This document shows positions 10,314-26,652 of a stretch of 33,118 nt of DNA, piece after piece (position 1 is the stretch's first letter; each line of letters opens with the position of its first letter). Origin of the DNA: a virus; IMG/VR virus record IMGVR_UViG_3300043444_000269, positions 1 through 33,118 of that record. The stretch is one strand, 5' to 3'. The position numbers and the translations under genes are program-made. The notes beneath the pieces were generated by a model. The model was not told the DNA's origin, did no database searches, and worked only from the letters and a program-made list of their open reading frames with translations.

Positions 10314-10324
10314 TAATTTTTTCT

Positions 10325-10363
10325 TGATTATCTGAAGCAATAAATAAACTGCGTAGATAATCA
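10325..10363 (+). promoter_or_regulatory. Hairpin abutting the ribosome-binding site of the next gene
   Basis: A perfect 9-bp inverted repeat, TGATTATCT (10325-10333) and AGATAATCA (10355-10363), separated by 21 bases. The last base of the 3' arm is the first base of the AGGAG ribosome-binding site (10363-10367) of the gene at 10373. A late-promoter-like sequence lies in the loop. RNA made by read-through could fold and limit access to the site; RNA begun inside the loop could not. Confidence 0.5.
10339..10346 (+). promoter_or_regulatory. T4-type late-promoter candidate
   Basis: AATAAATA, one mismatch from TATAAATA, in the loop of the hairpin at 10325-10363. Using T4 spacing, transcription would begin near 10352, about 20 bases before the ATG at 10373 and just before its AGGAG site. 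It would drive the whole modification cluster that follows. Confidence 0.45.
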
Positions 10364-10372
10364 GGAGAAAAT

Positions 10373-10723
10373 ATGCAAGAGCATCTTAAGCAAGCTCTAG
10401 ATTTTGCCAATTATAGGCAAACATTATCAATCCAAAGAAGAACACTAAAAGAAAAAATTGATGCTAAGTTAACCTACGGCCATGCAGGCGGACTTTTTAA
10501 AATCGATCAAACATTAATTTCTTTTGTTCAACTTCTTATATCTCAAGGAAGGACATCCGGTGTTCCTCTTGTAGACAGCAATGAAAATCCTGTAATGATA
10601 GAAAATTTAGAATCTTTCAGAGATGAGATTCTAGATCGGTATTTCACAGCCACTCAGGAATACTATGAAGAATATCAAAAAATTAAAAAAAGTAGATCTG
10701 TGGAGAAATTAGTGGATCTATGA
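10373..10723 (+). CDS. Conserved phage protein of unknown function
   Basis: A 116-residue protein predicted to be mostly helical, with charged N-terminal (LKQALDFANYRQTLSIQRR) and C-terminal (YYEEYQKIKKSRSVEKL) helices around a central FKIDQTLISFVQLLISQGR segment. I do not recognise a family of known function. An AGGAG site lies six bases upstream. The gene overlaps the next by four bases (ATGA), so it heads the coupled modification cluster, although its size and composition also fit a small virion or scaffold-type protein belonging to the structural module on its left. Confidence 0.65.
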   Translation: MQEHLKQALDFANYRQTLSIQRRTLKEKIDAKLTYGHAGGLFKIDQTLISFVQLLISQGRTSGVPLVDSNENPVMIENLESFRDEILDRYFTATQEYYEEYQKIKKSRSVEKLVDL

Positions 10724-11583
10724 ATAGAGGTGTTTTGATATTTGCTCATAATAATAGAGATATCGACTATGCATTGATGTCTATTATTTCAGGCGGACTT
10801 GCTAAAAAGAATCTAGGAGTTCCGGTTAGTCTGGTTACGGATCCTACCACGGTTAATTGGTTGATAGAATCTAAACAGTTTGAAAAAGCAGCAACAGTAT
10901 TTGATAAAATTATTTCGGTTGATAAACCAGAAACCGATAATAAAAGAAAATTACATGACGGATTGAATAACAAAGTGGTTCCGTTTGTTAATTCAAATAG
11001 ATGTTCAGCCTGGGACCTAACTCCTTACGATAAGACCTTAATCATAGACAGTGATTTTTTTATATTCTCTGATAGATTATCTCAATTCTGGGATCTGGAT
11101 TTTGATGTAATGATTGGTAATTCGGCATTAGATATTGTCAATGATTCTAGACTAGGATATCATGATAGATATGTTTCAGATACCGGTATACATATGAATT
11201 GGGCCACTACTGTTATGTTTGAAAAAAATGAAAATTCTAAAATATTTTTTAACACAGTAGATCTAGTAAAAGAGAAATATAAATTTTACGGAGATATATT
11301 TAGATTTTCTACCGATCAGTTTAGAAACGATATCGCATTTAGTGTAGCCAAGCATATCTTACAGGGTTTTGAGACAGAAAATATATCAGACTTACCTCCG
11401 ATATTAACTACGTTAGACAGAGATATACTACACTCCGTAACTCCGGACGGCAAATTATTTTTCTTAGTATCTCCTAATTTAGGCGATAAGTTCTGTATAT
11501 CGTCTATTAAAGACATGGATGTTCATATCATGAACAAACAAAGTATCATAAGAAATGCTGACTCATTGTTGGAGTTAATATGA
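10720..11583 (+). CDS. GT-A-like glycosyltransferase candidate
   Basis: A 287-residue protein likely transferring a sugar from a nucleotide-sugar donor. The N-terminus (GVLIFAHNNRDIDYALMSII, then VPVSLVTDP) resembles the donor-binding half of GT-A enzymes, and a DSD motif at residues 110-112, preceded by hydrophobic TLIID, fits the metal-binding DxD site seen in GT8-type enzymes. A second Asp-rich stretch (STDQFRNDIAF) follows near residue 200, where GT-A folds often carry the acceptor-side DQD-like motif. It overlaps both neighbours by four bases (ATGA), consistent with translational coupling. Family membership is inferred from motif layout only, and the acceptor is unknown. Confidence 0.6.
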   Translation: MNRGVLIFAHNNRDIDYALMSIISGGLAKKNLGVPVSLVTDPTTVNWLIESKQFEKAATVFDKIISVDKPETDNKRKLHDGLNNKVVPFVNSNRCSAWDLTPYDKTLIIDSDFFIFSDRLSQFWDLDFDVMIGNSALDIVNDSRLGYHDRYVSDTGIHMNWATTVMFEKNENSKIFFNTVDLVKEKYKFYGDIFRFSTDQFRNDIAFSVAKHILQGFETENISDLPPILTTLDRDILHSVTPDGKLFFLVSPNLGDKFCISSIKDMDVHIMNKQSIIRNADSLLELI

Positions 11584-12419
11584 ACTTTGGATATCTACTA
11601 ATAGTGTCTAGCCATCCGGATGTTGATTATCTTAGATTGGCTTATGCTCTAGCATTAAGTATAAAAAATACTCAACGGCCGGGATACGACCAAGTTGCTC
11701 TAGTAATTGATAATGCCGACGATGTAAAACAACTAAAAAGCTCGTGGGTCTTTGATCATGTGATCGAATGGCGACAAGAAACATATTGGGACGGTCGTAG
11801 TTGGATGGATAAATTAACTCCGTTTGAGAATACGGTATGCCTTGATGTTGATATGTTGTTTACTCGAGATTACAGCCATTGGGTTGATTATTTTATTGAA
11901 AATTCTGAACTGTATGTTGCTAATAAAAGCTATACCTATCGGGGTGAATTAGTAGAAGACGATTTTTATAGACGTGCCTTTACAAAAAATAAACTGCCTA
12001 ACCTTTACAGTTTTTATACATTCTTTAAAAAAGACAGCAAGTTGGTAAGAGATTTTTTTGAGTTAGGTAGACATATTATAAAAAATCCCACAGAATTTTC
12101 TAATAATTTTTTAACAGAACTCAAGCCTAAGGTAGTCGGAACAGATGAAGTATTCGCCTTGGCAGCAAAAATTTTAGATATATCTGATCAAATAGCTTAT
12201 GACTTAGAATTTCCTAGAGTAGTGCATATGAAACCTATGGTTCAGAATTGGCCCTGGCCTGCAACATTGTGCAGTGACCATGTTGGATTCTATTTGAATA
12301 GGAATGGAAAAATAAAAATAGGAAATTATGAACAACATGATATAGTTCATTATGTTGAAAAAGATAAAATCGACGATGAGATGATTAATATTTTAGAGGA
12401 GATATCATGGAAGAACTGA
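11580..12419 (+). CDS. GT-A-like glycosyltransferase candidate, related to left neighbour
   Basis: A 279-residue protein with the same plan as the preceding gene: an N-terminal LLIVSSHPDVDYLRLAYALA segment, VALVIDNAD, a DVD motif at residues 89-91 (TVCLDVDMLF) matching a DxD metal site, and a GTDEVFALAAKI segment near residue 195 resembling the DQ-like acceptor region. The final third contains VVHMKPMVQNWPW, an aromatic stretch possibly lining the acceptor site. It probably arose by divergence from a common ancestor with its neighbour. It ends 13 bases into the next gene. The donor and acceptor cannot be inferred. Confidence 0.6.
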   Translation: MNFGYLLIVSSHPDVDYLRLAYALALSIKNTQRPGYDQVALVIDNADDVKQLKSSWVFDHVIEWRQETYWDGRSWMDKLTPFENTVCLDVDMLFTRDYSHWVDYFIENSELYVANKSYTYRGELVEDDFYRRAFTKNKLPNLYSFYTFFKKDSKLVRDFFELGRHIIKNPTEFSNNFLTELKPKVVGTDEVFALAAKILDISDQIAYDLEFPRVVHMKPMVQNWPWPATLCSDHVGFYLNRNGKIKIGNYEQHDIVHYVEKDKIDDEMINILEEISWKN

Positions 12420-13009
12420 TATTAAATTTTCCTCCTCTAAAATACAAAGCAGAATATTCTGTAGACACTGGCGCACTGTTAGCTGTAGGCCCTGATCATT
12501 ATTTTAAAGATAAAGAAAATGTGATCGACATAGATCAGGAAACCGCCGAACTAATAATGGAAGGCAAGATAAAAATACATTCTTGTTTTGTTGATCTGCT
12601 TAATAATGAACTAGATATAACAGAAACAAAAAGTATTTTTAAAATAGATAATGTTTTGCATAGGATAATTGAAAAGAAGTGGTCTACGATAGACAGGCCA
12701 GATGTTTATGTATCTTATAATTCTAAAAAGAAAAATATCAAATTTGAGTTGAGTGAAGAATTTGGCGGCACCAAAAAACTAGCCAAAAAATTTCAACCGG
12801 TTAAAAATCGTAAGATTAATTGGAACGGTGAAACAGAAATGAACTTTATGATCACAGATTACAATGATCCGAACTTGCTCTTTGATATGATTTCGTTTAA
12901 AATAAATGATATCGTAGGAAAATCTATAATTGTAGATATAGAAGTTCCAAAAAAATTCAGCGTTTATACACGAAGGATTTTTAAAAATTATGTATTCGAG
13001 ATAAAATGA
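12407..13009 (+). CDS. Protein of unknown function in the modification cluster
   Basis: A 200-residue, Lys/Ile-rich protein with no motif I recognise. The first 100 residues contain YSVDTGALLAVGPDHY and a predicted helix around IDQETAELIMEGKI; the second half is mostly beta (VYVSYNSKKKNIKFELSEEF, MNFMITDYNDP, KSIIVDIEVPKKF). It has no signal peptide, membrane segment or Cys cluster. A strong AGAGGAG site lies inside the preceding gene, and it overlaps the following gene by four bases, so it is expressed with the glycosyltransferases. An accessory or structural role is possible. Confidence 0.6.
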   Translation: MEELILNFPPLKYKAEYSVDTGALLAVGPDHYFKDKENVIDIDQETAELIMEGKIKIHSCFVDLLNNELDITETKSIFKIDNVLHRIIEKKWSTIDRPDVYVSYNSKKKNIKFELSEEFGGTKKLAKKFQPVKNRKINWNGETEMNFMITDYNDPNLLFDMISFKINDIVGKSIIVDIEVPKKFSVYTRRIFKNYVFEIK

Positions 13010-13899
13010 AAACTGTTGAATTTGACGTTGTATTTTTAAGTTATGATGAACCTAATGCAGATTTGCATTATGCCGACCTTTGCAATAAAGTGCCTTGGGC
13101 AAAACGTGTTCACGGTGTAAAAGGCAGCGACCACGCACACAAGGCCGCAGCAGAATTATCAGATACTGAATGGTTTATTACGGTAGATGCTGATAACATC
13201 GTTGATCCTAAATTCTTTGATCTCGAGTTAGACATGACTGATCCCAAAATACAGGTCTACGGTTGGTGCGGAAGAAATAAAATTAATGGTCTTCGTTATG
13301 GTAACGGTGGACTAAAGATTTGGCGTAAAGATTTTGTCTTAAATATGCAGACCCATGAAAACGCAACTAGTGATCGCGCACAGGTAGATTTTTGTTGGGA
13401 AGATGGATATAAGAATTTTCCTAGAGTGTATTCGGAAAGTGTTATTACCGGCTCGCCATTCCAGGCATGGAGAGCAGGATTCCGTGAAGGTGTTAAGATG
13501 ACCTTGCTTGACGGTGTTAAAGTTCCTCCCCAGGAAATTAAAGAACGTATTTGGTGGCATAACATTCATAGATTGCGCATGTGGTCTACAGTGGGTATGC
13601 ACGAAGAAAACGGAAAGTATGCTATCCTTGGTGCTCGTATGGGAACATGGATGACAAATTGCAGTGATTGGAATTATGTTGATGTTCGTGACTTTGAAAT
13701 ACTTAGAGATATCTATGAAGAAAAAGTTAATCATACATTTGTTGAAGAAGACGCCCAAGACTTTGCAGTAAAGATAAAAGATCAGCTAGGGTTAGAATGG
13801 CCGTGGCTAGATGCTCAACAAAGCAAATATACCTTAGATCTTTACGATGAAACGATTAATCTTGGCCTAACCTATTATGTGATGCCTGAAAATGTATGA
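13006..13899 (+). CDS. GT2-like glycosyltransferase
   Basis: A 297-residue protein with GT2-like features: an N-terminal strand FDVVFLSYDEPNA, a central KGSDHAHKAAAEL helix and a DAD motif at residues 61-63 (WFITVDADNIV) matching the DxD metal/nucleotide-sugar site. NGLRYGNGGLKIW near residue 100 is repeated almost exactly in the next gene and is probably part of the acceptor or donor pocket. Residues 150-200 (SPFQAWRAGFREGVKM, WWHNIHRLRMW) are aromatic-rich. The product is probably a cytoplasmic enzyme because no signal or membrane segment is present. It overlaps the next gene by eight bases. Confidence 0.65.
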   Translation: MKTVEFDVVFLSYDEPNADLHYADLCNKVPWAKRVHGVKGSDHAHKAAAELSDTEWFITVDADNIVDPKFFDLELDMTDPKIQVYGWCGRNKINGLRYGNGGLKIWRKDFVLNMQTHENATSDRAQVDFCWEDGYKNFPRVYSESVITGSPFQAWRAGFREGVKMTLLDGVKVPPQEIKERIWWHNIHRLRMWSTVGMHEENGKYAILGARMGTWMTNCSDWNYVDVRDFEILRDIYEEKVNHTFVEEDAQDFAVKIKDQLGLEWPWLDAQQSKYTLDLYDETINLGLTYYVMPENV

Positions 13900-14944
13900 T
13901 ATATTTTTTGTTAGTCGCACTAGGATAGAAGATCAAGTCTGGGAAGAGATTAGAGAACGATTTCCTAGAGCACAGAAACTTGAGCATGTTAAGACATTCG
14001 ATGATGTAAAGTCTAAATCTTTCACTAAACATTTTTGGGTAGTCTGGGATCACATCGTTTTAAGAGACGAATGGAAATTTGAATATGTAATCCCTAAATG
14101 GGATGAAGAATATATTCATGTTTTTAAAAACAATGATTATTATGACGGTGTGTGTATATTTCATAAAAATCATAAAATTTTACAACGTGAGTGGGACTAC
14201 AGATTTTTTACAAAGAAGAAAGAAGTAGATATCCTTTCAAGTCGTCCTAAGCCGTTTGACATAGTTTTTATTTCATATAACGAATCCTTTGCTGATACTA
14301 ATTGGCACAATCTTTTAACTAAGGTAGATGGTTATCGCTGTTATAGAGTAAATGGCGTTAAAGGTATACACCAAGCACATAAAGCAGCCGCCGAGATGGT
14401 AGGAACTGACATGTTCTGGGTAGTAGATGCCGATGCTGAATTGTTAGATACATTTGATTTTGATTATCAGATTCCTTACTACGATTTTAATGCGAAATCT
14501 ACGGTGCATGTTTGGAAAAGTCAAAACCCAGTTAACGGTCTTGAATATGGAAATGGTGGTGTGAAATTACTGCCTACTGAATTGACAAAGAATATGGATA
14601 TGTCTAAACCGGACATGACTACTAGTATCAGCAAGCAATTTAAGCCGATGCCGACGATATCTAACATTACACGATTTAATACAGATCCATTTACTACATG
14701 GAGATCTGCGTTTAGAGAGTGTTGTAAATTAGCTAGTAGAATCATCGACAGACAAGATGATAAAGAAACTCAAGAACGATTAGATATATGGTGTGAAAAA
14801 TCTAATGACAGTTTTGCTCTTGAAGGTGCTCGAGCAGGTCGTGCCTTCGGCACTGAAAATAAAACCAACCTCGATGCGTTGAAAAAAATCAACGATTACG
14901 ATTGGTTAAAGGAACAGTTTGATGGACGACATAGCACGAATTAA
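13892..14944 (+). CDS. GT2-like glycosyltransferase with degenerate N-terminal duplicate domain
   Basis: A 350-residue paralogue of the preceding protein, with an extra N-terminal half. Residues about 126-350 align with the neighbour: FDIVFISYNESFADTNW, KGIHQAHKAAAEM, a DAD site at residues 179-181 (FWVVDADAELL) and NGLEYGNGGVKLL. Residues 1-115 look like a second, worn copy: YDIFFVSRTRIEDQVW at the start, and FWVVWDHIVLRDEWKFEYVI where FWVVDADAELLDTFDFDYQI stands in the second half, so the DxD is replaced by WDH. The first half therefore probably lacks catalysis and may be structural or acceptor-binding. The gene overlaps its downstream neighbour by 23 bases. Confidence 0.65.
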   Translation: MYDIFFVSRTRIEDQVWEEIRERFPRAQKLEHVKTFDDVKSKSFTKHFWVVWDHIVLRDEWKFEYVIPKWDEEYIHVFKNNDYYDGVCIFHKNHKILQREWDYRFFTKKKEVDILSSRPKPFDIVFISYNESFADTNWHNLLTKVDGYRCYRVNGVKGIHQAHKAAAEMVGTDMFWVVDADAELLDTFDFDYQIPYYDFNAKSTVHVWKSQNPVNGLEYGNGGVKLLPTELTKNMDMSKPDMTTSISKQFKPMPTISNITRFNTDPFTTWRSAFRECCKLASRIIDRQDDKETQERLDIWCEKSNDSFALEGARAGRAFGTENKTNLDALKKINDYDWLKEQFDGRHSTN

Positions 14945-16289
14945 AAAGTTTATTCCCATCATGAATGAAATTTCGCCAACATTCTGTTTGGCTAAATGGC
15001 ATCACACGACTATATATCTACAAACAGGAGAAACACATAGTTGTTATCATCCCCCTCCACATAAGATTTCTATAGAAGAAATCACTATCGATCCTGGTGC
15101 TCTGCATAATACAGAACAAAAGAAACACGAACGGTTGGCGATGCTCAACGGAGAAAAACCTAGCGGCTGCGACTATTGTTGGAACATCGAGTCATTAGGT
15201 GAAGATTATGTCAGCGATCGTAAGGAACGCAACTCAACTATCTATACACCAGAACGTTTTCAACAGATCAGAGACGGAGATTGGGATCAAAACATAAATC
15301 CACAATACATAGAAATTTCATTTGGTAACGAGTGTAATTTTAAATGCGGTTATTGCCACCCTAAACATAGCAGTGCTTATCATAAAGAAATCAGAGACAA
15401 TGGTCCCTATGATATGGTTAAGAATCATAGAAATGATATTGACTGGTTTAAAATCTATGAAGAAGAAACTAATCCTTATGTAGATGCATGGTGGCGCTGG
15501 TGGCCCGAAGTTCGTAAGACACTAACAATTCTGCGTATCACAGGTGGAGAGCCGTTGCTTCAACAAAGCACATGGCGTTTATTAGAAGATCTAGAAGCAA
15601 ATCCGTTGCCTAATTTAGAATTAAACATTAACACAAACCTTGGAGTTAAGCCCGTCCTCATAGATCGCCTAGTTGAAAAGGTTAATAATCTAGTTAACGA
15701 AAAGAAAATAAGAGATTTTAAAATCTTTACTAGCATGGATACGTGGAATGAGCAGGCAGAATATATTAGAACAGGATTAGATATTGATGTTTGGGAACGA
15801 AATTTAGACACATACTTAACAAAAACTTCGTTGCCTATTACGTTCATGATAACGTTTAACATATTAACTGTAACAAATTTTCAAAATTTATTATCTAAGA
15901 TTTTAGAATGGAGATCGAAGTATAATGGATCAAATCAAAATAAATGGCAACGTGTTAGATTTGACACACCTTTCTTAAAGGAACCCCTGCAATATGATAT
16001 GAACATTCTACCTAAGGATCAATTTATGCCATATATGCACAGCCATTTACAGTTTATAAAAGATAACTTAGATGATAAAGACAGGACTAAATTTAGTGAT
16101 CTAGAATACGAAAAATTTAGACGTGTGGTTGATTATATGCAAAACACAATATATGACGATCAAAAACTTGAAGAAGGTCGAAGAGATTTTTATCAATGGT
16201 TTACTGAATATGATCGAAGACGAGGAACTGATTTTATAAAAACTTTTCCTGAATTAGAAAATTTTTATTATGAATGTAGAACCGTCTAA
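14922..16289 (+). CDS. Radical SAM protein with N-terminal twitch-like region
   Basis: A 455-residue radical SAM enzyme. Cys138, Cys142 and Cys145 form the CX3CX2C site (CNFKCGYC) that binds the [4Fe-4S] cluster used to cleave S-adenosylmethionine, and GGEPLL at residues 208-213 is the SAM-binding motif. The first 130 residues carry additional Cys residues (FCLAKWHH, HSCYHPPP, CDYCWN), resembling the N-terminal twitch/SPASM-like region of phage radical SAM proteins, which may hold an auxiliary cluster. An open TTG lies three bases upstream, but the ATG at 14922 has an AAGGA site at the proper distance. It overlaps its neighbour on each side by 20-23 bases. The substrate, perhaps a sugar or a peptide side chain, is unknown. 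Confidence 0.8.
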   Translation: MDDIARIKKFIPIMNEISPTFCLAKWHHTTIYLQTGETHSCYHPPPHKISIEEITIDPGALHNTEQKKHERLAMLNGEKPSGCDYCWNIESLGEDYVSDRKERNSTIYTPERFQQIRDGDWDQNINPQYIEISFGNECNFKCGYCHPKHSSAYHKEIRDNGPYDMVKNHRNDIDWFKIYEEETNPYVDAWWRWWPEVRKTLTILRITGGEPLLQQSTWRLLEDLEANPLPNLELNINTNLGVKPVLIDRLVEKVNNLVNEKKIRDFKIFTSMDTWNEQAEYIRTGLDIDVWERNLDTYLTKTSLPITFMITFNILTVTNFQNLLSKILEWRSKYNGSNQNKWQRVRFDTPFLKEPLQYDMNILPKDQFMPYMHSHLQFIKDNLDDKDRTKFSDLEYEKFRRVVDYMQNTIYDDQKLEEGRRDFYQWFTEYDRRRGTDFIKTFPELENFYYECRTV

Positions 16290-17457
16290 AACTTTTTGTA
16301 TACTGCCTTGGATTCATATCTATGTTAATCCGGACGGTAGTGTCTTGCCTTGTTGTATCGGCGACCATAATATTCATCTAGGTAATACAAGATTTAATAC
16401 AATAACTGACATATGGAATAGTGATCAATATAAGGTCATTCGACAGAATATGTTAGAAGGTAAAAGATGCGATGAATGCAAAGCCTGTTACTCAAGTGAA
16501 GATGCTGGGCTTAACAGTTTTAGAAAAAGTGTTAATAAACAATATAACAAATATTTTCATTTAGTTAATGATACACAAGAAGACGGATTTTTACCGTCGA
16601 TGAATCTGAGATATTTTGATGTTAGGTGGAGCAACATCTGTAATTTTAAATGCAGGTCTTGTAGCGGAACTTATAGCTCTAGTTGGGCCACTGAAGAAAA
16701 AAGGCCCAACGTATATATTTTTGCAGGTGGAAAAAATAACGATAATCTATACGATCAATTTTTACCTTACTTAAAAGATATCGAAGAGTTTTATTTTGCA
16801 GGCGGTGAGCCATTATTGACTGATAAGCATTACGATATTTTAGAATATTTGATCAGCATAGGTAAGACTGATGTAAAATTAAGATACAATACTAATCTTA
16901 GTTCTTTGACCTATAAAAAATCTTCAGTTTTAGATTTATGGAAGAATTTTAAAAATATCAATGTAGATGCGAGTTTAGACAGTTGGGGAGATAGAGCAGA
17001 ATACATCAGAGAAGGAACTGATTGGAAACTAATAGAACAAAATATAAAAAATATACAATCAGTTACTCCTCACGTTAATTTGCAGATCAATTCTGTTGTA
17101 TCGATTTTCAATATAGCTACTATGGCAGAGTTCTATAATTATCTTATTAATAATTCTATATTTGATAAAAATAAATTTTCTCCGAATCATTATAACCTTT
17201 TAAATCCTAATTTTTATAATGTGAATATAATTCCCAACGAATTAAAAATAAGAATAAAAAACAGATTATCTTCCGTATCTATTTCTAAAAATATAGATCA
17301 AAAAATCCAAGACATGATAAAATTTTTAGATTCTTCGACGTATGATAGAAATCTACATATAGAGTTTATAGAACAGACTAAGCATTACGATGCTATTAGA
17401 AATAGGAATTTTATTAACACCTTTCCTGAGATTTCGGAGATGTATGAAATCAAGTGA
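16270..17457 (+). CDS. Radical SAM protein with N-terminal SPASM/twitch-like domain
   Basis: A 395-residue radical SAM enzyme with a domain order opposite to that of classical SPASM enzymes. The N-terminus has the usual SPASM signature (Cys10 in FCILPWIHIYVNPDG, Cys28-Cys29 in LPCC, a GNTRFNTITDIW stretch and Cys67, Cys70, Cys73 in CDECKAC), expected to bind an auxiliary Fe-S cluster. The radical SAM core follows, with Cys124, Cys128, Cys131 (CNFKCRSC) and GGEPLL at residues 178-183. SPASM enzymes typically modify peptides or sugars. It is adjacent to another N-twitch radical SAM gene and was probably recruited or duplicated with it. The reaction is unknown. Confidence 0.8.
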   Translation: MNVEPSKTFCILPWIHIYVNPDGSVLPCCIGDHNIHLGNTRFNTITDIWNSDQYKVIRQNMLEGKRCDECKACYSSEDAGLNSFRKSVNKQYNKYFHLVNDTQEDGFLPSMNLRYFDVRWSNICNFKCRSCSGTYSSSWATEEKRPNVYIFAGGKNNDNLYDQFLPYLKDIEEFYFAGGEPLLTDKHYDILEYLISIGKTDVKLRYNTNLSSLTYKKSSVLDLWKNFKNINVDASLDSWGDRAEYIREGTDWKLIEQNIKNIQSVTPHVNLQINSVVSIFNIATMAEFYNYLINNSIFDKNKFSPNHYNLLNPNFYNVNIIPNELKIRIKNRLSSVSISKNIDQKIQDMIKFLDSSTYDRNLHIEFIEQTKHYDAIRNRNFINTFPEISEMYEIK

Positions 17458-18950: not shown

Positions 18951-20128
18951 GATTATTAAATTCAAAGGTTCCTATAATTAATACCTACGATGTTAAAAAT
19001 CCATCGGTGTCATGGACTGATCAAACATCTGGAATTTCTGAATTATTGAGTATTCCTGAACACGATTTTAAATTTTGGTATTGTTTATTTTCTTGTGAAA
19101 ACAGTTTTAAAATATTCGACCTTGTTGAAATGATGGGAGAGCATGTATCTCAATTAATAAAAAGCAAGCAGGCATTTTTAGTATTAGATAATACTCTAGA
19201 ACCATTTGAAAAAGTTATAGATTCTATATATGAAAATATTGTAAGCAAGGGTATACCGGCATCTCAGATAATTTTATTAACAAATTTATATGATGTTAAG
19301 GATTATTGTAAAACTATAGCAGAAAAATTTAACGAAGAACCAATAAGAATATTTTGGTATACCGTATTCGAACAAAGTTTAAAGAATGATTTACTGCATG
19401 TTGTTTATAAAATAAACGAAGAAAATAAGTTACCTGCTACACTACAGATAAAAAAATATCATAAGAAATTTCTAAATTTCAATAGACGATGGAGATTACA
19501 TAGACCTTTTTTAATATCTCTGATGCATGGTAGAAATCTTTTAGAGAAAGGATTTGTTAGTTTGGGTCCTTGCGAAGAAAGAGATAATTGGGATTATAGG
19601 TGGAGAGAATTAATTAACTATTTTAGAGATGATGATAAAATTTTAAAAATATTAGAGTCGTGTGAGAAAGTAAAAGAGATTCCGCCTCTATTTTTAGATA
19701 CGGAGGAATTACATATTAATCGGGCTGTGTCAACTACAGATACAAATCGATATTATGAGGATAGTTATTTTAGCGTCGTATCGGAAACTACATTTTTTAC
19801 CAAACAATATTATCACTCATTTAGGTTTTTAAGCGAAAAGGCATTTAAACCAATAGCTATGAAACATCCATTTATTTTAGTAAGTGTTCCTCGTAGTTTG
19901 GAAATTTATAAAATAATGGGATATAAGACATTTTCGCCTATCATCGATGAGAGTTACGATCTTGAATTAGATGATGGTAAGCGTATGTTAATGATCTTAG
20001 ATGAAATTGAAAGATTATCAAATCTCGATAAAAGAGAACGAGCAAATTTTATCTTGCAATGTAGAGACATTTGTGAGTATAATTATAATGTCTTACTTTC
20101 TAAGACTAGATTTATTACGGAACTTTAA
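18947..20128 (+). CDS. SEK/DESYD-motif protein, glycosyltransferase-like C-terminus
   Basis: A 393-residue protein related to the minus-strand protein at 22211-23416. The C-terminus holds a run of motifs common to both: FLSEKAFKPIAMKHPFILVS, SLEIYKIMGYKTF, IDESYDLELDD and an adjoining Lys/Arg helix. The order SEK...HPF...GYKTF...DESYD is recurrent in large phages and viruses and resembles the C-terminal donor half of glycosyltransferase family 10-like enzymes, but a firm family call is not possible. The N-terminal half is alpha/beta without recognisable motifs. It is joined to its neighbours by ATGA (upstream) and TAATG (downstream). Confidence 0.6.
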   Translation: MRLLNSKVPIINTYDVKNPSVSWTDQTSGISELLSIPEHDFKFWYCLFSCENSFKIFDLVEMMGEHVSQLIKSKQAFLVLDNTLEPFEKVIDSIYENIVSKGIPASQIILLTNLYDVKDYCKTIAEKFNEEPIRIFWYTVFEQSLKNDLLHVVYKINEENKLPATLQIKKYHKKFLNFNRRWRLHRPFLISLMHGRNLLEKGFVSLGPCEERDNWDYRWRELINYFRDDDKILKILESCEKVKEIPPLFLDTEELHINRAVSTTDTNRYYEDSYFSVVSETTFFTKQYYHSFRFLSEKAFKPIAMKHPFILVSVPRSLEIYKIMGYKTFSPIIDESYDLELDDGKRMLMILDEIERLSNLDKRERANFILQCRDICEYNYNVLLSKTRFITEL

Positions 20129-22230
20129 TGGCATATCATTTAGGAGACGACAAACATCTTAATACGCTCAAAGCTATAGAGCAGTATGTCAAACCTATCG
20201 AACAGAAAAATACCACTCCTATAAAAATTAATCATGCCAGCAGACGATCTAAGTTAATGTTGGTTTTATTGCCGCAGTGGGCTGCTGAATTTCCTCCTTT
20301 CAACCTTTGTAGATTATCAGCAGTGGCTAAAGAAGCCGGTTATCAAAGTCGTGTCTTGGATGCAAATATAAAAGCATATAGATATTACGAAAATAAAATC
20401 AAAGATAAACTTCCATACAAATTGTGGGATCCTACTACAATTTGGAGATGGTGCGATAACAATTATAAAGATATTCACGTTCACCTAGAACCATTGCTTC
20501 TAGAAGTAATTGATCAGATACTTGAATATGATCCAGACTTACTAGGTTTTAGCATTTATCAAATGAATGAAGAACCTACAAAGTGGATGATCCAGCAGAT
20601 TAAATCTATCAAACCTTATATTAAGATAGCAGTTGGCGGGCCGAACGTTCATAAAGGTTATTTTGTAAAAGAAGATTATTACGATTATGTAGTAAGCGGC
20701 GAAGGCGAAGAAGCTATTTTAAAAATACTAGATGAAGTTGAACAAGATATTCTTCATATAGATCAACAACATATAATACAGCCAGAAGATCAGCGCCTTG
20801 GATTAAATCGATTACCCATGCCCGATTATGATAATATTGATTTTAATGAATATAGGATTTCCAACGGTGTGACAACTGAATTAAGTCGTGGGTGTATAGC
20901 AAAATGCACCTTTTGTGAAGAAACACATTTCTGGAAATACAGACAACGTATGGCTGTTGATGCCTTGGAAGAAGTGTCGTATCTCTATGATAGAGGCATT
21001 AGACTGTTTTGGTTTATTGACAGTCTAGTCAACGGAAATCTTAAAGAACTTAGGGGATTCGCCAAAGGTATTATTGCTAAAGGTCTAGACATAAAGTGGA
21101 CAGGATATGCTCGCTGTGACGGACGTATGGATCTTGAATATATGAAAGACTTAGCAGATAGTGGTTGCGTTTATTTAAATTACGGTTGCGAATCTGGAAG
21201 TCAGAAAATTCTCAACGATATGGCCAAAGGGGTTACTATCGCAGAGATGGAACAGAATTTTAGAGATGGCAAAGCAGTTGGGATCAAGGCTGCTACTAAC
21301 TGGATTGTTGGTTTTCCTACAGAGACACATCAAGATTATGCAGATACTATGACATTCTTGATTCGCAATAGAGATATGAATATCAGTAATATCAGCACAG
21401 GTATCGGGTTCGGTCAAGGACCGGAAACGATTACCGGTCAGAATCCAGATAAGTTTAATTTGTCTTATCAAAAATATTTAGGATATTGGATCACTAAAGA
21501 TTTTAGGATGGGGGGTTCTCATGTATTAATCCGTGTAAAATGCATGAGCATCTTTTTAGATCAAATTATTAAAGATAAGAAAATAGATTATCCTATACGT
21601 CCTAATCTTAGAAAGTTTCATTACACTATAGAATATGAGGATGATATTGAAAGAGAAGTCGAGTATGAAATTTTTGATTACGACATAATTAACACTGATA
21701 TCAATCCTTATGCTGATGGGCTGGTAAATGAGATGTGGCCTTTCCTTAGAACTCTTTGGAGAGTAAAAGGTGGATATTCTACAGTAATACGATTTAACCC
21801 AGAACTTGACTCTGCTGAATTCGGTAATACATTCGGAACAGGAAAGTTCACTGGAGAATTTAAGTTTAAGATTTCAACAGATGGAAAGTGGACTGCTGAT
21901 TTTAAATGGGATTTTATTCAGCACTGGGAAATAGATTCTTATAGGAATGCTGATAGACAAGGTCCTTTCTTTGCACAAGATTTTAGTAACATGACCAGCA
22001 ATGCATCTATACGTGCAAGGCGATTGGCTAAACCTGATTGGGGAATGGACGGACGTTCGGCAGACGATTACAATAAGTTATTTGTCGAAGAAAAAGACCT
22101 TAATAAAAATATAGATTGGACCTTTAACTTTCATTGGTCAGGAAAAGGTGATTGGGGAGATTACAATTCATATTCGACTGATGTTCCTGACAGTCTCGTT
22201 GAAACACAAACTATACAATTTTATCGTTAA
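20128..22230 (+). CDS. B12-binding-type radical SAM protein with extra C-terminal domain
   Basis: A 700-residue enzyme. Residues about 46-195 fit the cobalamin-binding domain of class B radical SAM proteins (LMLVLLPQWAAEFPPFNLCR, DPDLLGFSIYQMNEEPT, VGGPNVHKG). The radical SAM core has Cys256, Cys260 and Cys263 (RGCIAKCTFCEE) and the typical LNYGCESGSQKIL and WIVGFPTETHQDY segments. Enzymes of this class perform difficult methylations or C-C bond chemistry, and some act on sugars. The last 160 residues (from near 540) form an aromatic- and Gly-rich beta domain (GGYSTVIRFNPEL, GEFKFKISTDGKWTADFKWD) that I do not recognise. The gene shares one base with the upstream stop codon and its stop overlaps the convergent gene by 20 bases. 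Confidence 0.8.
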   Translation: MAYHLGDDKHLNTLKAIEQYVKPIEQKNTTPIKINHASRRSKLMLVLLPQWAAEFPPFNLCRLSAVAKEAGYQSRVLDANIKAYRYYENKIKDKLPYKLWDPTTIWRWCDNNYKDIHVHLEPLLLEVIDQILEYDPDLLGFSIYQMNEEPTKWMIQQIKSIKPYIKIAVGGPNVHKGYFVKEDYYDYVVSGEGEEAILKILDEVEQDILHIDQQHIIQPEDQRLGLNRLPMPDYDNIDFNEYRISNGVTTELSRGCIAKCTFCEETHFWKYRQRMAVDALEEVSYLYDRGIRLFWFIDSLVNGNLKELRGFAKGIIAKGLDIKWTGYARCDGRMDLEYMKDLADSGCVYLNYGCESGSQKILNDMAKGVTIAEMEQNFRDGKAVGIKAATNWIVGFPTETHQDYADTMTFLIRNRDMNISNISTGIGFGQGPETITGQNPDKFNLSYQKYLGYWITKDFRMGGSHVLIRVKCMSIFLDQIIKDKKIDYPIRPNLRKFHYTIEYEDDIEREVEYEIFDYDIINTDINPYADGLVNEMWPFLRTLWRVKGGYSTVIRFNPELDSAEFGNTFGTGKFTGEFKFKISTDGKWTADFKWDFIQHWEIDSYRNADRQGPFFAQDFSNMTSNASIRARRLAKPDWGMDGRSADDYNKLFVEEKDLNKNIDWTFNFHWSGKGDWGDYNSYSTDVPDSLVETQTIQFYR

Positions 22231-23416
22231 GTAGAACAGTATCTAAGACAGATCTGTTATGTTTTATTACAGATCGCATGTCATAATAAATTTCAGATAG
22301 TTCTTTCAATGATTTAGAGTTGATAAAATCTATAACATCAAAAATTTTAACGATTCTTTTATAGTGGTCTTCTTCTAAATCGTAACTTTCATCCCACCAC
22401 TTATCGAATGTTTGGAATCCAAACGTTTTTAGATATTCTAAACTGTGTGGGGGTGCTGCTAATATCACTGGCATATTGTTGCCGATGGCCGTTAGTGTTT
22501 TTTCACTAAAGTAACCAAACGGTTGCGCATATCTAGTTTCGTTAACTACAGCACAGAAATTAGATTCGTAGCTTTTTAGAAACTCAGGAGTCCAGTTGGG
22601 TGCATGACCGCCTGGAATATAAACATCGTTTACTTGATTAACTGATAACGAATTTATACTTTGATCTATAGCTAACACATTATTCTCTAAAAAATCAATA
22701 CCTTTCTTTAATTGTTCGTGTTGTGCTGGTCTTTCCTGCTTGAATTTTTCTAAGTCAAACCAATCGTTATTTTTTAATTCATCATATGAGCATTTAAGAT
22801 TCCACGTATATGTGCCACTAAGCTGAGATAGATAACCGGTAACAACATGCCTATGTATAGTGTATCTCCAATTTCCACACCAGAACTTTTTATTAACATG
22901 ATGTTTTACAAAATACTTAGGAAATGATTTATAACATTTTCCCATCTCTCTAAGGAATAAATCTAAACAGTCTAACTTTATTTCTGGATAGTTTTCTTGT
23001 ATCAGTTGTATTTTATAATCAGAAGTAAAGACTCTAAAATTTTTAATGTTATTATTTTTTACAAATATTTTTATACTTTCGAGTTCGTCTACGATTATGT
23101 CTTTGAGATTTATATTTGATTTAAATTCACTGTAGAAATTTCTATTATGTTCACCGATACGAAAACAACTAGGTTCGTAAAGATAAAAATAAATTTCCGA
23201 TCGTTGAATACTTGGATCAACAATCATATTTTCTAAAGATTTTATTGTTCCGTTTCCTGTATAAATGAAATACGGATTTTTTAATTTTTTTAAGAAACAC
23301 TGATTAACTAAAAACTCTTCTAGGTAGCCTAGCTTTTTTTCAGCACCTGGAATATTGTTCCAGAATAAATCTTGAGTGTATTGTTCTTCAGTCTCTGAAA
23401 AGATCGAGAGTAACAC
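22211..23416 (-). CDS. SEK/DESYD-motif protein, minus-strand relative
   Basis: A 401-residue protein that shares the C-terminal motif order of the plus-strand gene at 18947-20128: YFSEKTLTAIGNNMPVILAA, SLEYLKTFGFQTF and DESYDLEEDHYKR. The N-terminal part (YIPGGHAPNWTPEFLKSY, WNLKCSYDELKNNDWF) is unlike the other copy. The start is a GTG at 23416, inside the end of the upstream amidinotransferase gene, with a strong AGGAGGAGGT site seven bases before it; no closer ATG is available. The 3' end overlaps the convergent radical SAM gene by 20 bases. A glycosyltransferase-like role is inferred only from the motif layout. Confidence 0.6.
   Translation of the reverse strand: MLLSIFSETEEQYTQDLFWNNIPGAEKKLGYLEEFLVNQCFLKKLKNPYFIYTGNGTIKSLENMIVDPSIQRSEIYFYLYEPSCFRIGEHNRNFYSEFKSNINLKDIIVDELESIKIFVKNNNIKNFRVFTSDYKIQLIQENYPEIKLDCLDLFLREMGKCYKSFPKYFVKHHVNKKFWCGNWRYTIHRHVVTGYLSQLSGTYTWNLKCSYDELKNNDWFDLEKFKQERPAQHEQLKKGIDFLENNVLAIDQSINSLSVNQVNDVYIPGGHAPNWTPEFLKSYESNFCAVVNETRYAQPFGYFSEKTLTAIGNNMPVILAAPPHSLEYLKTFGFQTFDKWWDESYDLEEDHYKRIVKIFDVIDFINSKSLKELSEIYYDMRSVIKHNRSVLDTVLLNDKIV
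22235..22268 (+). terminator. Weak intrinsic terminator candidate
   Basis: AACAG-T-ATCT (22235-22244) pairs with AGAT-CTGTT (22250-22258) with one bulged T and a 5-base loop, followed by the T-rich ATGTTTTATT. It lies immediately after the stop of the plus-strand cluster, inside the convergent gene. The stem is AT-rich and the T tract broken, so it may be weak. Confidence 0.4.
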
Positions 23417-24299
23417 AGTGATGACCTCCTCCTAATGTTCTACTATGCCTTAGGTCTATCCCTATGCTTTCTACATTGTGTTTTGATAGTTGATTCCGAA
23501 GATACGTTTGTTTAGGATCGCATATAACTAGATAAGGATTTATAGTTAAGAAATTTAAAGCGATATATTTACTAGCATACGGATATCCAGTAAATGATTG
23601 AGTGACTAAGTCGTTTCCGGTGATCCAGATTTTATCCCAGGTTTTAAATATGCTAGGCAAATTATCTTGATTTATTCTATCTGCATTTAACATAACTAAA
23701 CCTTCTCTGATAGGACAAATAGTGCTGTCTATGTGAACTCCGTTATAGATATTGTCTAGTATATGAACTCGATAACTGGGTAATACGGATTGTAGCCATT
23801 CACCGCCTTTGCGATTTCCGCTTTCGCTGATAAGATATAACAAATCGTCATTTAATCGACAGACATTGGCCGCATCAAATTTAACATCGGGATCTACAGT
23901 TGATATTAGATCTTTTTCAAACAGATGTTTTATGGCATCTATTTCTTTTACTCTCGTAGGATATAGAACTGGAGCATCAATTACTTGATCACCTATTACT
24001 AATATTCTATCTCTAGGACAGTAATTATACATACCGTCAAATGATTGGAAGTCTAGATCTTTAGGTCTATGAACAACAATGCCTAATGATTCTAACGTTT
24101 CGCGGAAGATTTCTAAATCTTCATTTGATTCTTCTATTATTCTAGTATCAACCGGACCTGCAGGAACCGGAGTGTCGTTCCATAGGGTAGTGTTTTCTAA
24201 ATTTCTAAAAGAAGGACACTTTGCAGGCCAATGAGCATTAGTAGCAGTTCCGAGTATAACTTCTTTTAAATTATCCCATTCGTTTTTAGAATTAATCAT
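23388..24299 (-). CDS. Glycine amidinotransferase/StrB-like amidinotransferase
   Basis: A 303-residue enzyme of the amidinotransferase family, which moves an amidino group from arginine to an amine, usually through a Cys-amidino intermediate. The sequence keeps the catalytic framework: FDAAN at residues 141-145 (Asp142), VHIDST at residues 188-193 (His189) and GGGHHC at 290-295 (Cys295), which parallel the FDAAD, MHIDAT and GGGFHC motifs of vertebrate L-arginine:glycine amidinotransferase and its bacterial StrB-type relatives. It is shorter than those (303 against about 347-423). It is coupled by four-base overlap to the aminotransferase upstream. The arginine donor is expected from the family; the acceptor is unknown and could be an amino sugar. 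Confidence 0.85.
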   Translation of the reverse strand: MINSKNEWDNLKEVILGTATNAHWPAKCPSFRNLENTTLWNDTPVPAGPVDTRIIEESNEDLEIFRETLESLGIVVHRPKDLDFQSFDGMYNYCPRDRILVIGDQVIDAPVLYPTRVKEIDAIKHLFEKDLISTVDPDVKFDAANVCRLNDDLLYLISESGNRKGGEWLQSVLPSYRVHILDNIYNGVHIDSTICPIREGLVMLNADRINQDNLPSIFKTWDKIWITGNDLVTQSFTGYPYASKYIALNFLTINPYLVICDPKQTYLRNQLSKHNVESIGIDLRHSRTLGGGHHCVTLDLFRD

Positions 24300-24883
24300 T
24301 TAATTTCTATTTCTCTACAGTCCGGATATTCTACAAATTTAATATCAAAGTCTTTTTTATTTTTATATTCTTGTAATTTTTTAATACCAATTACACACTC
24401 TTCCGGATTTAATTTATAATGAAATCCTAAGGAAAATGATTTTTGATTGACCCATGGGCTTATGCTTAAATCTCTACCGTCATATCGTAACATTGAAAGT
24501 TTTTTATAGTCTTCGTAGTTATCTAGTAATATAGCACCGCCTCTGCCTATTTCTAAAGGTTTCGTATGACCAAAACTTAAACATTGCATCATTCCTTCTC
24601 TATACATATCGGGTTCTAATCTTCTAGCACTATCCCAAATATCAGTTCCGTAGAACCTATATTCACCGGTCCATTTTTCAGGAATTAAATTATATTCAAT
24701 GCCTAGCTTATGAAGCGTCATAGGAACCGATAGGTATGTAAAGGCGGTAAACCCTGTTCTCTTAACTTTTTTATATCGCAAACATAATTCTATGGCATGT
24801 GTGCAGCAATCCGTAGTTACTACATACGGAGCACCGGTGAACTCAGCTAATTCTTTTTCGAACTTGAATATTTTATCAAACAT
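24296..24883 (-). CDS. Compact DegT/StrS-type aminotransferase
   Basis: A 195-residue protein resembling the PLP-dependent sugar aminotransferases of the DegT/DnrJ/EryC1/StrS family. Recognisable pieces are FEKELAEFTGAPYVVTTDCC with a small loop and helix, TGFTAFTYLSVPMTLHKLG, Asp84 in DIWDSARRL (expected PLP pyridine partner) and Lys108 in SFGHTKPLEIGRGGAI, the likely Schiff-base lysine. Normal members have about 370 residues, and here a large part of the middle and most of the C-terminal small domain are missing, while the active-site spacing around Asp84-Lys108 is kept. It may work as a dimer with altered architecture, or it may have lost activity. It overlaps both neighbours by four to eight bases. 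Confidence 0.7.
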   Translation of the reverse strand: MFDKIFKFEKELAEFTGAPYVVTTDCCTHAIELCLRYKKVKRTGFTAFTYLSVPMTLHKLGIEYNLIPEKWTGEYRFYGTDIWDSARRLEPDMYREGMMQCLSFGHTKPLEIGRGGAILLDNYEDYKKLSMLRYDGRDLSISPWVNQKSFSLGFHYKLNPEECVIGIKKLQEYKNKKDFDIKFVEYPDCREIEIK

Positions 24884-25376
24884 CGGTGAATGTTATCTGT
24901 GCAGTATATCTAGGTTCTACTCCTAGATTAGCAGCCATGTGAGGTGAATCGTATTGCCATAATACATATTCTCCAGCTCTCCATTTAGTTATTGGTTCAC
25001 CTTCGATCTCAAATACATGACCGGGTTTCCAATCTTCTAAAAATATTACGGCTCTCCATATAGAACTGTTGTTGGAGATATTAAAAATTTTTTTGTAATA
25101 GCTGTAAGTATCTTGATGATATGGTAAAATATTACAGGTTTCCATTTTATAAAAACTTAACCCGTGATTGGCACCTTTAAAGATTGATAGGAATTTTTCA
25201 GTCCACGGCGGCATTACTGATTTCATATCATATAGTAATCCTGTGAAATGAGTTTGAGAAAATCCTTGAGACCTCCATAGAGATACATCGTCGTGACAAT
25301 TAAACGGTTCTCGTTGATACACTAGATATCTATGATTCAGGTCCCAGAATGGTTCTATCAAACCCTGTTTATACAA
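24876..25376 (-). CDS. 2OG-Fe(II) oxygenase-like protein
   Basis: A 166-residue protein with the metal and co-substrate motif of 2-oxoglutarate-dependent Fe(II) oxygenases: His87-x-Asp89 (ILPYHQDTYSYY), His146 (YDSPHMAAN) and Arg156 (EPRYTAQITF), within a double-stranded beta-helix pattern that includes WRAVIFLEDWKPGH and KWRAGEYVLWQ. Such enzymes hydroxylate or otherwise oxidise proteins, nucleobases or small molecules. No ATG occurs near the start; a TTG at 25376 with a CGGAG site seven bases before it is used. It is first in the minus-strand operon that continues with the aminotransferase and amidinotransferase. Confidence 0.7.
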   Translation of the reverse strand: MYKQGLIEPFWDLNHRYLVYQREPFNCHDDVSLWRSQGFSQTHFTGLLYDMKSVMPPWTEKFLSIFKGANHGLSFYKMETCNILPYHQDTYSYYKKIFNISNNSSIWRAVIFLEDWKPGHVFEIEGEPITKWRAGEYVLWQYDSPHMAANLGVEPRYTAQITFTDV

Positions 25377-25387
25377 AAATATACTCC

Positions 25388-25395
25388 GATAAATA
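25388..25395 (+). promoter_or_regulatory. Late-promoter candidate, plus strand
   Basis: GATAAATA, one mismatch from the T4 late consensus TATAAATA. A start near 25401 would leave a 25-base leader with a GAGG site before the ATG at 25426. It mirrors a minus-strand candidate at 25408-25415. Confidence 0.5.
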
Positions 25396-25414
25396 ATATG
25401 CTGCTATTATTTAT
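25389..25414. promoter_or_regulatory. Palindrome with divergent late promoters
   Basis: ATAAATAATA (25389-25398) and TATTATTTAT (25405-25414) form a perfect 10-bp inverted repeat around TGCTGC. The two arms are the core of the plus- and minus-strand late-promoter candidates, so the intergenic region is nearly symmetrical. Confidence 0.5.
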
Positions 25415-25415
25415 T
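25408..25415 (-). promoter_or_regulatory. Late-promoter candidate, minus strand
   Basis: Read on the minus strand the sequence is AATAAATA, one mismatch from TATAAATA. A start near 25402 would give a leader of about 26 bases, containing CGGAG, before the TTG start at 25376 of the oxygenase operon. Confidence 0.45.
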
Positions 25416-25425
25416 GAGGTTAAAG

Positions 25426-26652
25426 ATGCAAATTGGGTTTATTGGATTGGGTAAATTAGGATTGCCGTGTGCAGAAGAGATCGCTAAAAAAGGTCACGAT
25501 GTTTCTGGATACGACATACGGATAGTAGATCCTACAATGCTTGTAAAAATTTCTAAGTCGATTAAAGATGCAGTTGAAGATAAAGACATTGTTTTTATCG
25601 CTGTGCCTACTCCTCATGACCCTGCATATGATGGAAGAGCCCCAACAGCGCACCTCGATCCAAAAGATTTTTCTTATGAGATAGTTAAACAATGTTTAGT
25701 TGAAGCCAACAAACATATGAATAAAAATCAATTGTTAGTATTGATATCTACAGTATTACCTGGAACGACTCGAAGAGAATTTATTCAATTAGTTAACAAT
25801 ACAAGATTTGTTTACAATCCGTATCTTATCGCTATGGGATCAGTGGCATGGGATATGGTCAATCCTGAAATGGTCATGATCGGCACAGAAGACGGAACCG
25901 AAACCGGTGATGCCAAACAGTTAGTAGATTTTTATAAAACTGTCATGGAAAACAATCCTAGATATGTAATTGGAACGTGGGACGAATGCGAATGCATTAA
26001 GGTTTTTTATAATACATTTATATCTGCTAAGATTGGGCTAGTTAATATGATTCAAGATGTTGCTGTAAAACAAGGAAACATCGATGTTGATGTAGTAACC
26101 GATGCTCTAGCAAAATCTACTATGCGCATCATGGGGCCTCAGTATATGAAAGCAGGTATGGGAGATGGCGGCGCATGTCATCCTAGAGATAATATCGCTC
26201 TACGATATATGGCAGATCATTTAGATCTCGGATATGATTTGTTTGATGCGATAATGAATGCTCGAGAAATTCAGGCAAAAAATCTTGCTAAGGAATTAGT
26301 AAAACATGCCGAGGAACATCGAATGAGTATTTTTATCCACGGCAAAGCATACAAGCCCGGAGTAGAATATTGTGATGGTAGTTATAGTTTATTAATCGGT
26401 CACTATTGTGAGGAATTGGGACATAAACCAACATACATAGATCCATTGACTGATGATGACATTCAAGGATGTTATGGTGTAGTTTTATTAGCCCACAACA
26501 AAAAAGTCACATACGAATATCGTGGGTTTAACGAGTCTCAACAATTATATTGTAAAATAGAAAAAGGGTCAATTGTTATTGACCCTTGGAGAAGTTTTAA
26601 ATCAGATGATCACCGAGTGATCCACTACGGAAATACTAGAAAATACTTTTAG
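25426..26652 (+). CDS. UDP-glucose 6-dehydrogenase-like nucleotide-sugar dehydrogenase
   Basis: A 408-residue NAD-dependent dehydrogenase of the UDP-glucose/GDP-mannose dehydrogenase family, which oxidises the sugar C6 alcohol to the acid in two steps. GLGKLG at residues 7-12 is the GxGxxG dinucleotide motif, VFIAVPTP marks the end of the NAD domain, and Cys251 in GDGGACHPRDN corresponds to the catalytic Cys of the GFGGSCFPKD motif. CIKVFYNTFIS supplies the conserved Lys-Asn helix. An open TTG at 25414 precedes the chosen ATG, which has a GAGG site seven bases upstream. It is the only plus-strand gene between two minus-strand operons and would supply a uronic-acid nucleotide sugar to the glycosyltransferases. 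Confidence 0.85.
   Translation: MQIGFIGLGKLGLPCAEEIAKKGHDVSGYDIRIVDPTMLVKISKSIKDAVEDKDIVFIAVPTPHDPAYDGRAPTAHLDPKDFSYEIVKQCLVEANKHMNKNQLLVLISTVLPGTTRREFIQLVNNTRFVYNPYLIAMGSVAWDMVNPEMVMIGTEDGTETGDAKQLVDFYKTVMENNPRYVIGTWDECECIKVFYNTFISAKIGLVNMIQDVAVKQGNIDVDVVTDALAKSTMRIMGPQYMKAGMGDGGACHPRDNIALRYMADHLDLGYDLFDAIMNAREIQAKNLAKELVKHAEEHRMSIFIHGKAYKPGVEYCDGSYSLLIGHYCEELGHKPTYIDPLTDDDIQGCYGVVLLAHNKKVTYEYRGFNESQQLYCKIEKGSIVIDPWRSFKSDDHRVIHYGNTRKYF
26561..26587 (-). terminator. Intrinsic terminator of the right-hand operon
   Basis: AAGGGTCAAT (26564-26573) and ATTGACCCTT (26578-26587) form a perfect 10-bp stem with a 4-base loop. On the minus strand it is followed by TTTTTC and more T, the standard pattern of a factor-independent terminator. 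It lies about 50 bases beyond the stop of the last minus-strand gene (26636), inside the dehydrogenase coding sequence on the other strand. Confidence 0.75.

Follow-up and report, generated by a model that had tools for sequence, protein, structure and literature searches.

A gene module with a predicted late promoter beside the tail fibres of an uncultured aquatic phage probably encodes a soluble glycan pathway that may act on the virion

The IMG/VR virus record IMGVR_UViG_3300043444_000269 was analysed as a whole (33,118 bases; "the window"). Directly behind its tail-fibre genes lies a block of sugar-modifying genes, g01 to g17, which consists of a fixed seven-gene core (g01-g07, 10373-16289) and an exchangeable cassette (16270-26652). 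We regard it as an evenly balanced proposition that this block specifies a late, cytosolic pathway by which a virion protein, probably one of the adjacent fibre proteins, receives a variable glycan. Glycosylation of a virion protein accounts for a late and soluble pathway with a near-universal, slow-evolving core beside the fibres better than either early DNA modification or the synthesis of a lipid-linked surface glycan would.

A fixed core precedes an exchangeable cassette

A preliminary description of the window had recognized one nearly gap-free modification island at 10720-26652. The genes that it listed are present and tightly packed: twelve plus-strand open reading frames (ORFs) with overlapping or abutting ends occupy 10373-22230, followed by a convergent minus-strand operon (g16-g13, 25376-22211) and by g17 (25414-26652, plus strand). 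The boundaries and the uniformity of the island had to be revised. The unit begins at 10373, its leader starting near 10315, and the idea of a single uniform island was rejected, since g08-g17 vary while g01-g07 do not.

In the loci fetched by g07, the genes g01-g07 kept the same order between the fibre genes and g18, while the content from g07 to g18 changed. Since these loci had been selected by g07, a second set was fetched by g18, which lies outside the island, to test the linkage again; each of them had 5 kb or more of flank towards the module. g07 was present in 44 of these 48 loci, at a distance of 0.5-8.3 kb. Among the four loci without g07, three had window-like long cassettes and their contigs or flanks ended first; the other had a flank of 5.4 kb. 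Essentially all members of the clade have the core. Moreover, the order fibre, g01, g02, g03, g05 was kept in 9-10 distant contigs binned into metagenome-assembled genomes (MAGs), at 23-52% identity, and the close linkage of the genes with one another and with the fibre genes, as given in the preliminary description, was thus borne out. In the contigs concerned (L297-L300, L302-L304, L307, L309 and L312, from bacterial and archaeal MAGs), fibre-like genes are followed by g01-g02-g03-g05, with g01 not seen in L309; these contigs therefore probably come from phages and were binned with cells. The median identity of clade relatives to the window was approximately 80% for g05 and g07 and 84% for RNase H. 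Judged by these identities, the core is slow-evolving, unlike sporadic accessory genes.

The cassettes of 106 loci comprised 495 ORFs that fell into only 34 families. The SEK GT-B glycosyltransferase family was found in 74 loci, N-twitch radical SAM enzymes in 60, UDP-glucose dehydrogenase (UGD) in 46, the SGNH family with the g10 relatives in 38, NAD-dependent epimerase in 27 and 2-oxoglutarate (2OG) oxygenase in 18, besides others. When locus pairs with a g07 DNA identity of at least 80% were compared, 247 of 529 shared less than 30% of their cassette DNA. No membrane segment was predicted in g01-g17 of the window. Among the 495 cassette ORFs no convincing one was found, with six marginal hits resembling buried strands, and neither a flippase, a polymerase nor a lipid-linked transferase was seen, nor any other membrane protein.

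Glycosyltransferases and radical SAM enzymes

The preliminary description had counted four glycosyltransferase-like proteins and, separately, two proteins with SEK/DESYD motifs. g05 has a GT-A fold (AlphaFold2 [AF2] model, pLDDT 86; VIA Z up to 11.8 over approximately 142 residues) with D61 and D63 of its DxD motif invariant. Its first Foldseek row was a PBCV-1 enzyme described as involved in glycosylation of the viral major capsid protein, and the glycocin S-glycosyltransferases SunS and ThuS were also among the rows. g06 is a paralogue of g05 (hhalign probability 100, E 3.9e-43). g02 and g03 are paralogous to each other, and their best matches were weak ones to glycogenin (E 0.03 and 0.04, respectively), consistent between two independent profiles. 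Both SEK/DESYD proteins were found. g11 has a GT-B fold over its whole chain (AF2 model, pLDDT 91; residues 1-392 aligned), and its listed VIA matches were glycosyltransferases with Z of 8.9-11.3. Among these matches, the structurally closest were T4 beta-glucosyltransferase, the top one (Z 11.3), and the phage HY126 glycosyltransferase; with the T4 enzyme g11 has 7% identity and the common GT-B fold. g13 is presumed to be of the same type, and g13-like proteins group with g11-like ones in the cassette pool. If g13 follows g11, the block would encode six glycosyltransferases. The SEK/DESYD proteins of g11 type and the g05/g06 proteins, nameless in Pfam and PHROGs, are now placed in the GT-B and GT-A folds.

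The three radical SAM proteins g07, g08 and g12 matched Pfam above or at the cut-off, in agreement with the early reading of two N-twitch/SPASM-like enzymes and one with a B12-binding domain. With the curated cut-off of N_Twi_rSAM (NCBIfam NF033640) at 170 bits, g07 scored 317 bits (1.8e-94) and g08 389 bits (2.3e-116), and g08 matched SPASM as well (2.6e-14). The cluster motif CxxxCxxC (C139/C143/C146) and the N-terminal auxiliary-cluster cysteines C23/C42/C84/C87 were invariant in the g07 family. g12 matched the radical SAM and B12-binding domains of Pfam (1.1e-16 and 7.1e-12), and AprD4 was among its PDB matches. The possibilities that g07 and g08 are viperin (pVip) defence genes and that g12 is the defence gene PDC-M51A were rejected, the matches being weak superfamily ones, far under the N_Twi_rSAM scores in the case of g07 and g08. 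In two related loci (L035 11367-13817 and L083 11385-13859), a protein of approximately 820 aa consists of two tandem N-twitch radical SAM units.

Sugar-tailoring enzymes of the cassette

The preliminary description had also named a UDP-glucose-dehydrogenase-like protein, a compact StrS-type aminotransferase and an AGAT/StrB-like amidinotransferase, and profile searches upheld all three. g17 matched the UGD family in PHROG (1.1e-98) and in Pfam. g15 matched DegT/StrS (Pfam 1.9e-16) over part of the profile only, having 195 aa compared to approximately 370 aa at full length, and kept the pyridoxal phosphate-lysine (PLP-Lys) motif. Since the short length of g15 recurs in other phage loci, g15 is probably a real compact enzyme. 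The g14 protein of the window alone had no Pfam match. Nevertheless, its family profile matched StrB1, the inosamine-phosphate amidinotransferase, at 2.9e-91 and AGAT at approximately 1e-52 in the PDB, and the Asp-His-Cys triad D142, H189 and C295 was invariant in the family. g10 (SGNH) and g16 (2OG-Fe(II) oxygenase) had no profile match of their own; these two calls are kept on motifs and on relatives in other cassettes, which include one Pfam-positive 2OG oxygenase and a weak GDSL match.

The g13-g17 set recurs. Near g14 in the 38 loci fetched by it, g15 was found in 28, g16 in 32, an SEK protein in 28 and UGD in 27, and the loci sharing the set include distant phages. UGD, the mini-aminotransferase, the amidinotransferase and the 2OG oxygenase together could supply a guanidino sugar, by analogy with the streptidine branch of streptomycin synthesis, in which an aminotransferase (StrS) is followed by an amidinotransferase (StrB1, the best match of g14). 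The cassette differs from that branch in that g15 is half-size and that UGD, the 2OG oxygenase and a GT-B gene stand alongside. Taken together, the folds and profiles support the sugar-decorating role proposed for the block.

A predicted late promoter lies in the leader hairpin of g01

A predicted T4-type late promoter, ATAAATA (10340-10346), is located directly before g01 in the loop of a hairpin whose 3' arm holds the Shine-Dalgarno (SD) sequence. In the window, the RNA fold of this leader reached -23.3 kcal/mol with a z of -7.5. TAAATA occurred in 42 of 47 distinct g01 upstream regions (80 bases), compared to 5.0 expected from shuffles, and before approximately 20 of 23 fibre genes. It was rare (0-4 of 50-69) upstream of g02, g03, g05, g06 and g07, was found once in 74 upstream regions of QueE, and was almost absent before RNase H. 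Within the cassette it stood upstream of g16 in 12 of 16 and of g17 in 14 of 31 distinct relatives. All five ATAAATA in the window sit just upstream of genes. The exact TATAAATA is rarer than chance over the whole window; the promoter argument is one of position. Further late boxes at 28132-28139 (g21) and 28867-28874 (g23) were seen in all 98 and 95 distinct relatives, respectively, and may mark further late genes.

The median hairpin z was -3.45 at g01 (28 distinct leaders, 17 of them with z < -3), compared to approximately +0.5 at the late promoters of fibre genes. A helix enclosing TAAATA was found in 26 of 28 g01 leaders and in 9 of 17 fibre leaders, making it a poor discriminator; the z-scores do discriminate.

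In T4, the late promoters of genes e, soc, 49 and I-TevI lie within a hairpin that sequesters the ribosome-binding site, which stops translation of early read-through RNA, so that only late RNA exposes the site (PMC3014915, PMC2988022). Upstream of g01, a TATAAATA-like box likewise lies inside the SD-holding stem, and the g01 leader is predicted to be a late-only RNA switch of the T4 type. The T4 device serves lysis, Soc and an endonuclease gene, whereas the one predicted here heads a glycan operon.

Gene map

The features are collected in Table 1. The listed start of g09 overlaps g08 by 68 bases, and a later ATG near 17444 looks likelier.

Table 1. Features of the window from the fibre genes to the end of the cassette
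Feature	Position	Strand	Basis or remark
Tail-fibre genes g00a-g00e and fibre assembly protein (6257-6625); candidate acceptors	28..8424	+	PHROG tail-fibre and tail-collar families
g00f, g00g, fibre-like paralogues directly upstream of the module; candidate acceptors	8426..10313	+	ORFs; same place in relatives
g01 leader hairpin, late promoter in loop, SD in 3' arm	10315..10372	+	RNA fold; relatives
g01, 116 aa, no assigned function, first core gene	10373..10723	+	ORF; 65% median identity in clade
g02, GT-A candidate (glycogenin/GT8-like), invariant D110/D112	10720..11583	+	A3 profile; g03 paralogue
g03, GT-A candidate (glycogenin/GT8-like), invariant D89/D91	11580..12419	+	A4 profile
g04, 200 aa, conserved core protein	12407..13009	+	No PDB, Pfam or PHROG match
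g05, GT-A fold glycosyltransferase, D61-x-D63	13006..13899	+	AF2 model, VIA, Foldseek
g06, g05 paralogue with additional N-terminal part	13892..14944	+	hhalign
g07, N-terminal twitch radical SAM enzyme, core	14919..16289	+	NF033640; alignment A7
g08, second N-twitch/SPASM radical SAM enzyme, cassette	16270..17457	+	NF033640, SPASM
g09, almost private cassette gene	17390..18205	+	3-4 homologues among fetched loci
g10, SGNH-like hydrolase/acyltransferase (motif call)	18195..18950	+	GCS...DYHPSPRQH motifs; relatives in other cassettes
g11, GT-B fold glycosyltransferase (SEK/DESYD family)	18947..20128	+	AF2 model, VIA
g12, B12-binding radical SAM enzyme	20128..22230	+	Pfam; PDB matches
g13, second SEK/DESYD protein, presumed GT-B	22211..23416	-	SEK motif; clusters with g11-like proteins
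g14, StrB1/AGAT-type amidinotransferase	23388..24299	-	PDB profile; triad D142/H189/C295 (A9)
g15, half-size DegT/StrS aminotransferase	24296..24883	-	Pfam; PLP-Lys region aligned
g16, 2OG-Fe(II) oxygenase-like (motif call)	24876..25376	-	HxD...H...R motif
Back-to-back late promoters for g16 (-) and g17 (+)	25377..25413	.	ATAAATA at 25389 (+) and 25408 (-)
g17, UDP-glucose dehydrogenase-like enzyme	25414..26652	+	PHROG, Pfam

The carriers are uncultured large aquatic phages

No cultured phage was related at the DNA level to the first 25 kb of the window. Of 9 large contigs sharing window genes, 8 had a T4-superfamily major capsid gene, and the capsid protein of one of them was 67-72% identical to those of Sinorhizobium phage Phosso, Vibrio phage 2.275.O and Pseudomonas phage PA5oct. 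For RNase H, the window gene was 52-53% identical to its PA5oct counterpart, and QueE (31077-31928) adjoins RNase H, as it does in PA5oct; QueE also hints at a 7-deazaguanine pathway in the clade. Based on the capsid and RNase H identities and the placement of QueE, the window was therefore assigned as a piece of a large uncultured relative of the Phosso/2.275.O/PA5oct group.

The module itself was searched for in cultured phages (INPHARED) by tblastn with g05, g06, g07 and g11, and no match was found. PA5oct, CBB, Phosso and Vibrio phage 2.275.O were rejected as carriers, having no N_Twi_rSAM above the cut-off, and the g02 profile had no match in Phosso, 2.275.O or PA5oct, with a clade contig as the positive control. 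The carriers of the module are an uncultured family of large aquatic phages. We did not equate the clade with the moraphages, whose description (PMC12619734) names neither radical SAM enzymes nor PA5oct. The cultured Vibrio phage K566 (L277 11962-18698) has four N-twitch radical SAM genes clustered among unannotated genes and is a possible laboratory model.

Discussion

The families, the two folds, the gene order, the promoter with its hairpin, the cassette exchange and the absence of membrane segments are supported by sequence or structure models. From these we infer the timing, the acceptor, the sugar chemistry and the order of steps of the pathway. On read-through RNA that comes from the fibre genes, the ribosome-binding site of g01 would be masked by the leader hairpin, while RNA begun at the late promoter in the loop would lack the 5' arm, and g01 would be translated. 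The GT-A pairs of the core, g02/g03 and g05/g06, would start and extend a short glycan, and g07 would oxidise or rearrange the sugar or its peptide anchor. The cassette enzymes, namely the GT-B proteins g11 and g13, the radical SAM enzymes g08 and g12, the SGNH protein and the UGD/aminotransferase/amidinotransferase/2OG set, would then tailor the glycan. The most likely acceptors would be virion proteins produced concurrently, namely those of the adjacent tail-fibre or fibre-like genes. A more specific proposal, which we put forward only tentatively and consider improbable in all its parts at once, is that the fibres bear a radical-SAM-tailored glycan, guanidino-capped in some members through UGD, the mini-StrS and the StrB-like enzyme, with the universal core attaching it, the swappable cassette diversifying it and the late RNA switch delaying it until virion assembly.

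Several points weigh against glycosylation of the virion. GT-A and GT-B folds do not reveal the acceptor, and GT8 and GT9 enzymes, which have no membrane segments, also build lipopolysaccharide (LPS) cores, working on the cytosolic side. Late promoters are also used by lysis genes and some non-virion genes. RNAalifold on the 28 g01 leaders found no consensus helix or pair, each leader folding in its own register; therefore, the hairpin claim rests on the per-sequence z-scores. Finally, two clusters were seen among ordinary bacterial genes in Bdellovibrionia: g05, g06 and an N-twitch radical SAM gene together on a 494-kb MAG contig (L306 5980-9144), and, on a 937-kb contig (L311 5917-6942), a relative of g05 next to genes resembling glycosyltransferases. 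These occurrences suggest that enzymes of the module also serve cells and need not act on virions, and it is therefore that we hold the virion proposal in the balance and no higher.

The main rival is that the pathway changes the surface of the infected cell, at the O-chain or the LPS core, excluding other phages or releasing progeny. The cassette exchange seen between close relatives resembles serotype diversity, and pelagimyophage clusters in the same neighbourhood, with similar classes of genes (fibres, GT8, UGD, radical SAM), were read in this way by their authors (PMC7029224), as were those of cyanophages (PMC7824862). However, the predicted late promoter and late-only hairpin, the lack of flippase, polymerase, lipid-linked transferase and membrane protein in the cassettes, and a core that is essentially universal and slow-evolving, as a superinfection trait need not be, argue against it, and we judge it clearly the less probable of the two. 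The preliminary description had left the choice between virion and host surface undecided; the late-promoter hairpin and the missing membrane proteins tip the choice towards the virion but do not prove it.

Peptides are common substrates of SPASM/twitch enzymes, which might here modify g01, g04 or a host peptide in the manner of ribosomally synthesized and post-translationally modified peptides, with the transferases glycosylating the product. Besides this habit of the enzymes, two small core proteins without known relatives (g01 and g04) and the SunS and ThuS rows of g05 agree with such a role. On inspection, though, g01 and g04 lack the look of a leader-core or Cys/Ser-rich precursor, the cassettes showed neither a protease nor a transporter, and the cassette pool is mostly sugar enzymes, which makes peptide tailoring unlikely. 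DNA hypermodification, in which modified bases would be glycosylated as by T4 beta-glucosyltransferase, possibly with a guanidino group and the QueE pathway, could draw on the listed structural matches of g11 and on QueE nearby, but is very improbable given late rather than early control by the promoter boxes, a thymidylate synthase/hydroxymethylase family in 1 of 9 large contigs (which are fragments), wholesale cassette change between close relatives, and a T4 match that reflects a shared fold.

The preliminary description knew of no described phage pathway with this set of genes, a statement that was not supported: phage clusters of such a kind have been described in pelagimyophages (PMC7029224) and cyanophages (PMC7824862), and conserved transferases in moraphages, which have four core glycosyltransferases (PMC12619734). 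In pelagimyophages, the host recognition cluster sits in the structural region, between VrlC and gp14, and groups radical SAM cassettes and UDP-glucose 6-dehydrogenase with tail fibres and GT8-type glycosyltransferases (PMC7029224). It is likewise a hypervariable region of a T4-superfamily aquatic phage; in the window, by contrast, the variable part follows a fixed core of seven genes that has a late-promoter hairpin to itself. In pelagiphage HTVC008M, the g06 and SEK profiles found no match in searches run without a positive control, and the sole N_Twi_rSAM candidate fell short of E 0.001. The large polysaccharide clusters of cyanophages, such as the LPS clusters of the jumbo cyanophage P-SSM2, also unite several transferase families with sugar-tailoring enzymes (PMC7824862). 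Clusters of the P-SSM2 type have epimerases, kinases and nucleotidyltransferases for the whole sugar supply, whereas in the window few genes serve sugar supply and twitch radical SAM enzymes predominate; P-SSM2 gave no N_Twi_rSAM match. For mycobacteriophages, Freeman et al. (2023) reportedly linked phage-encoded glycans to capsid and tail proteins by experiment. Compared with that system, the acceptors here are candidates and the pathway is much larger.

As a whole, the observation of the preliminary description was confirmed and its interpretation partly supported. What is new here is the fixed core, the late switch, the placing of two transferase families in folds, and a guanidino-sugar gene set recurring in distant phages. 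In aquatic phages, clusters of glycosyltransferases and radical SAM enzymes are usually taken to act on host LPS. In this family, the near-universal core, the late-only switch predicted for it and the absence of membrane parts point to the virion, and the question can be tested on a single isolate.

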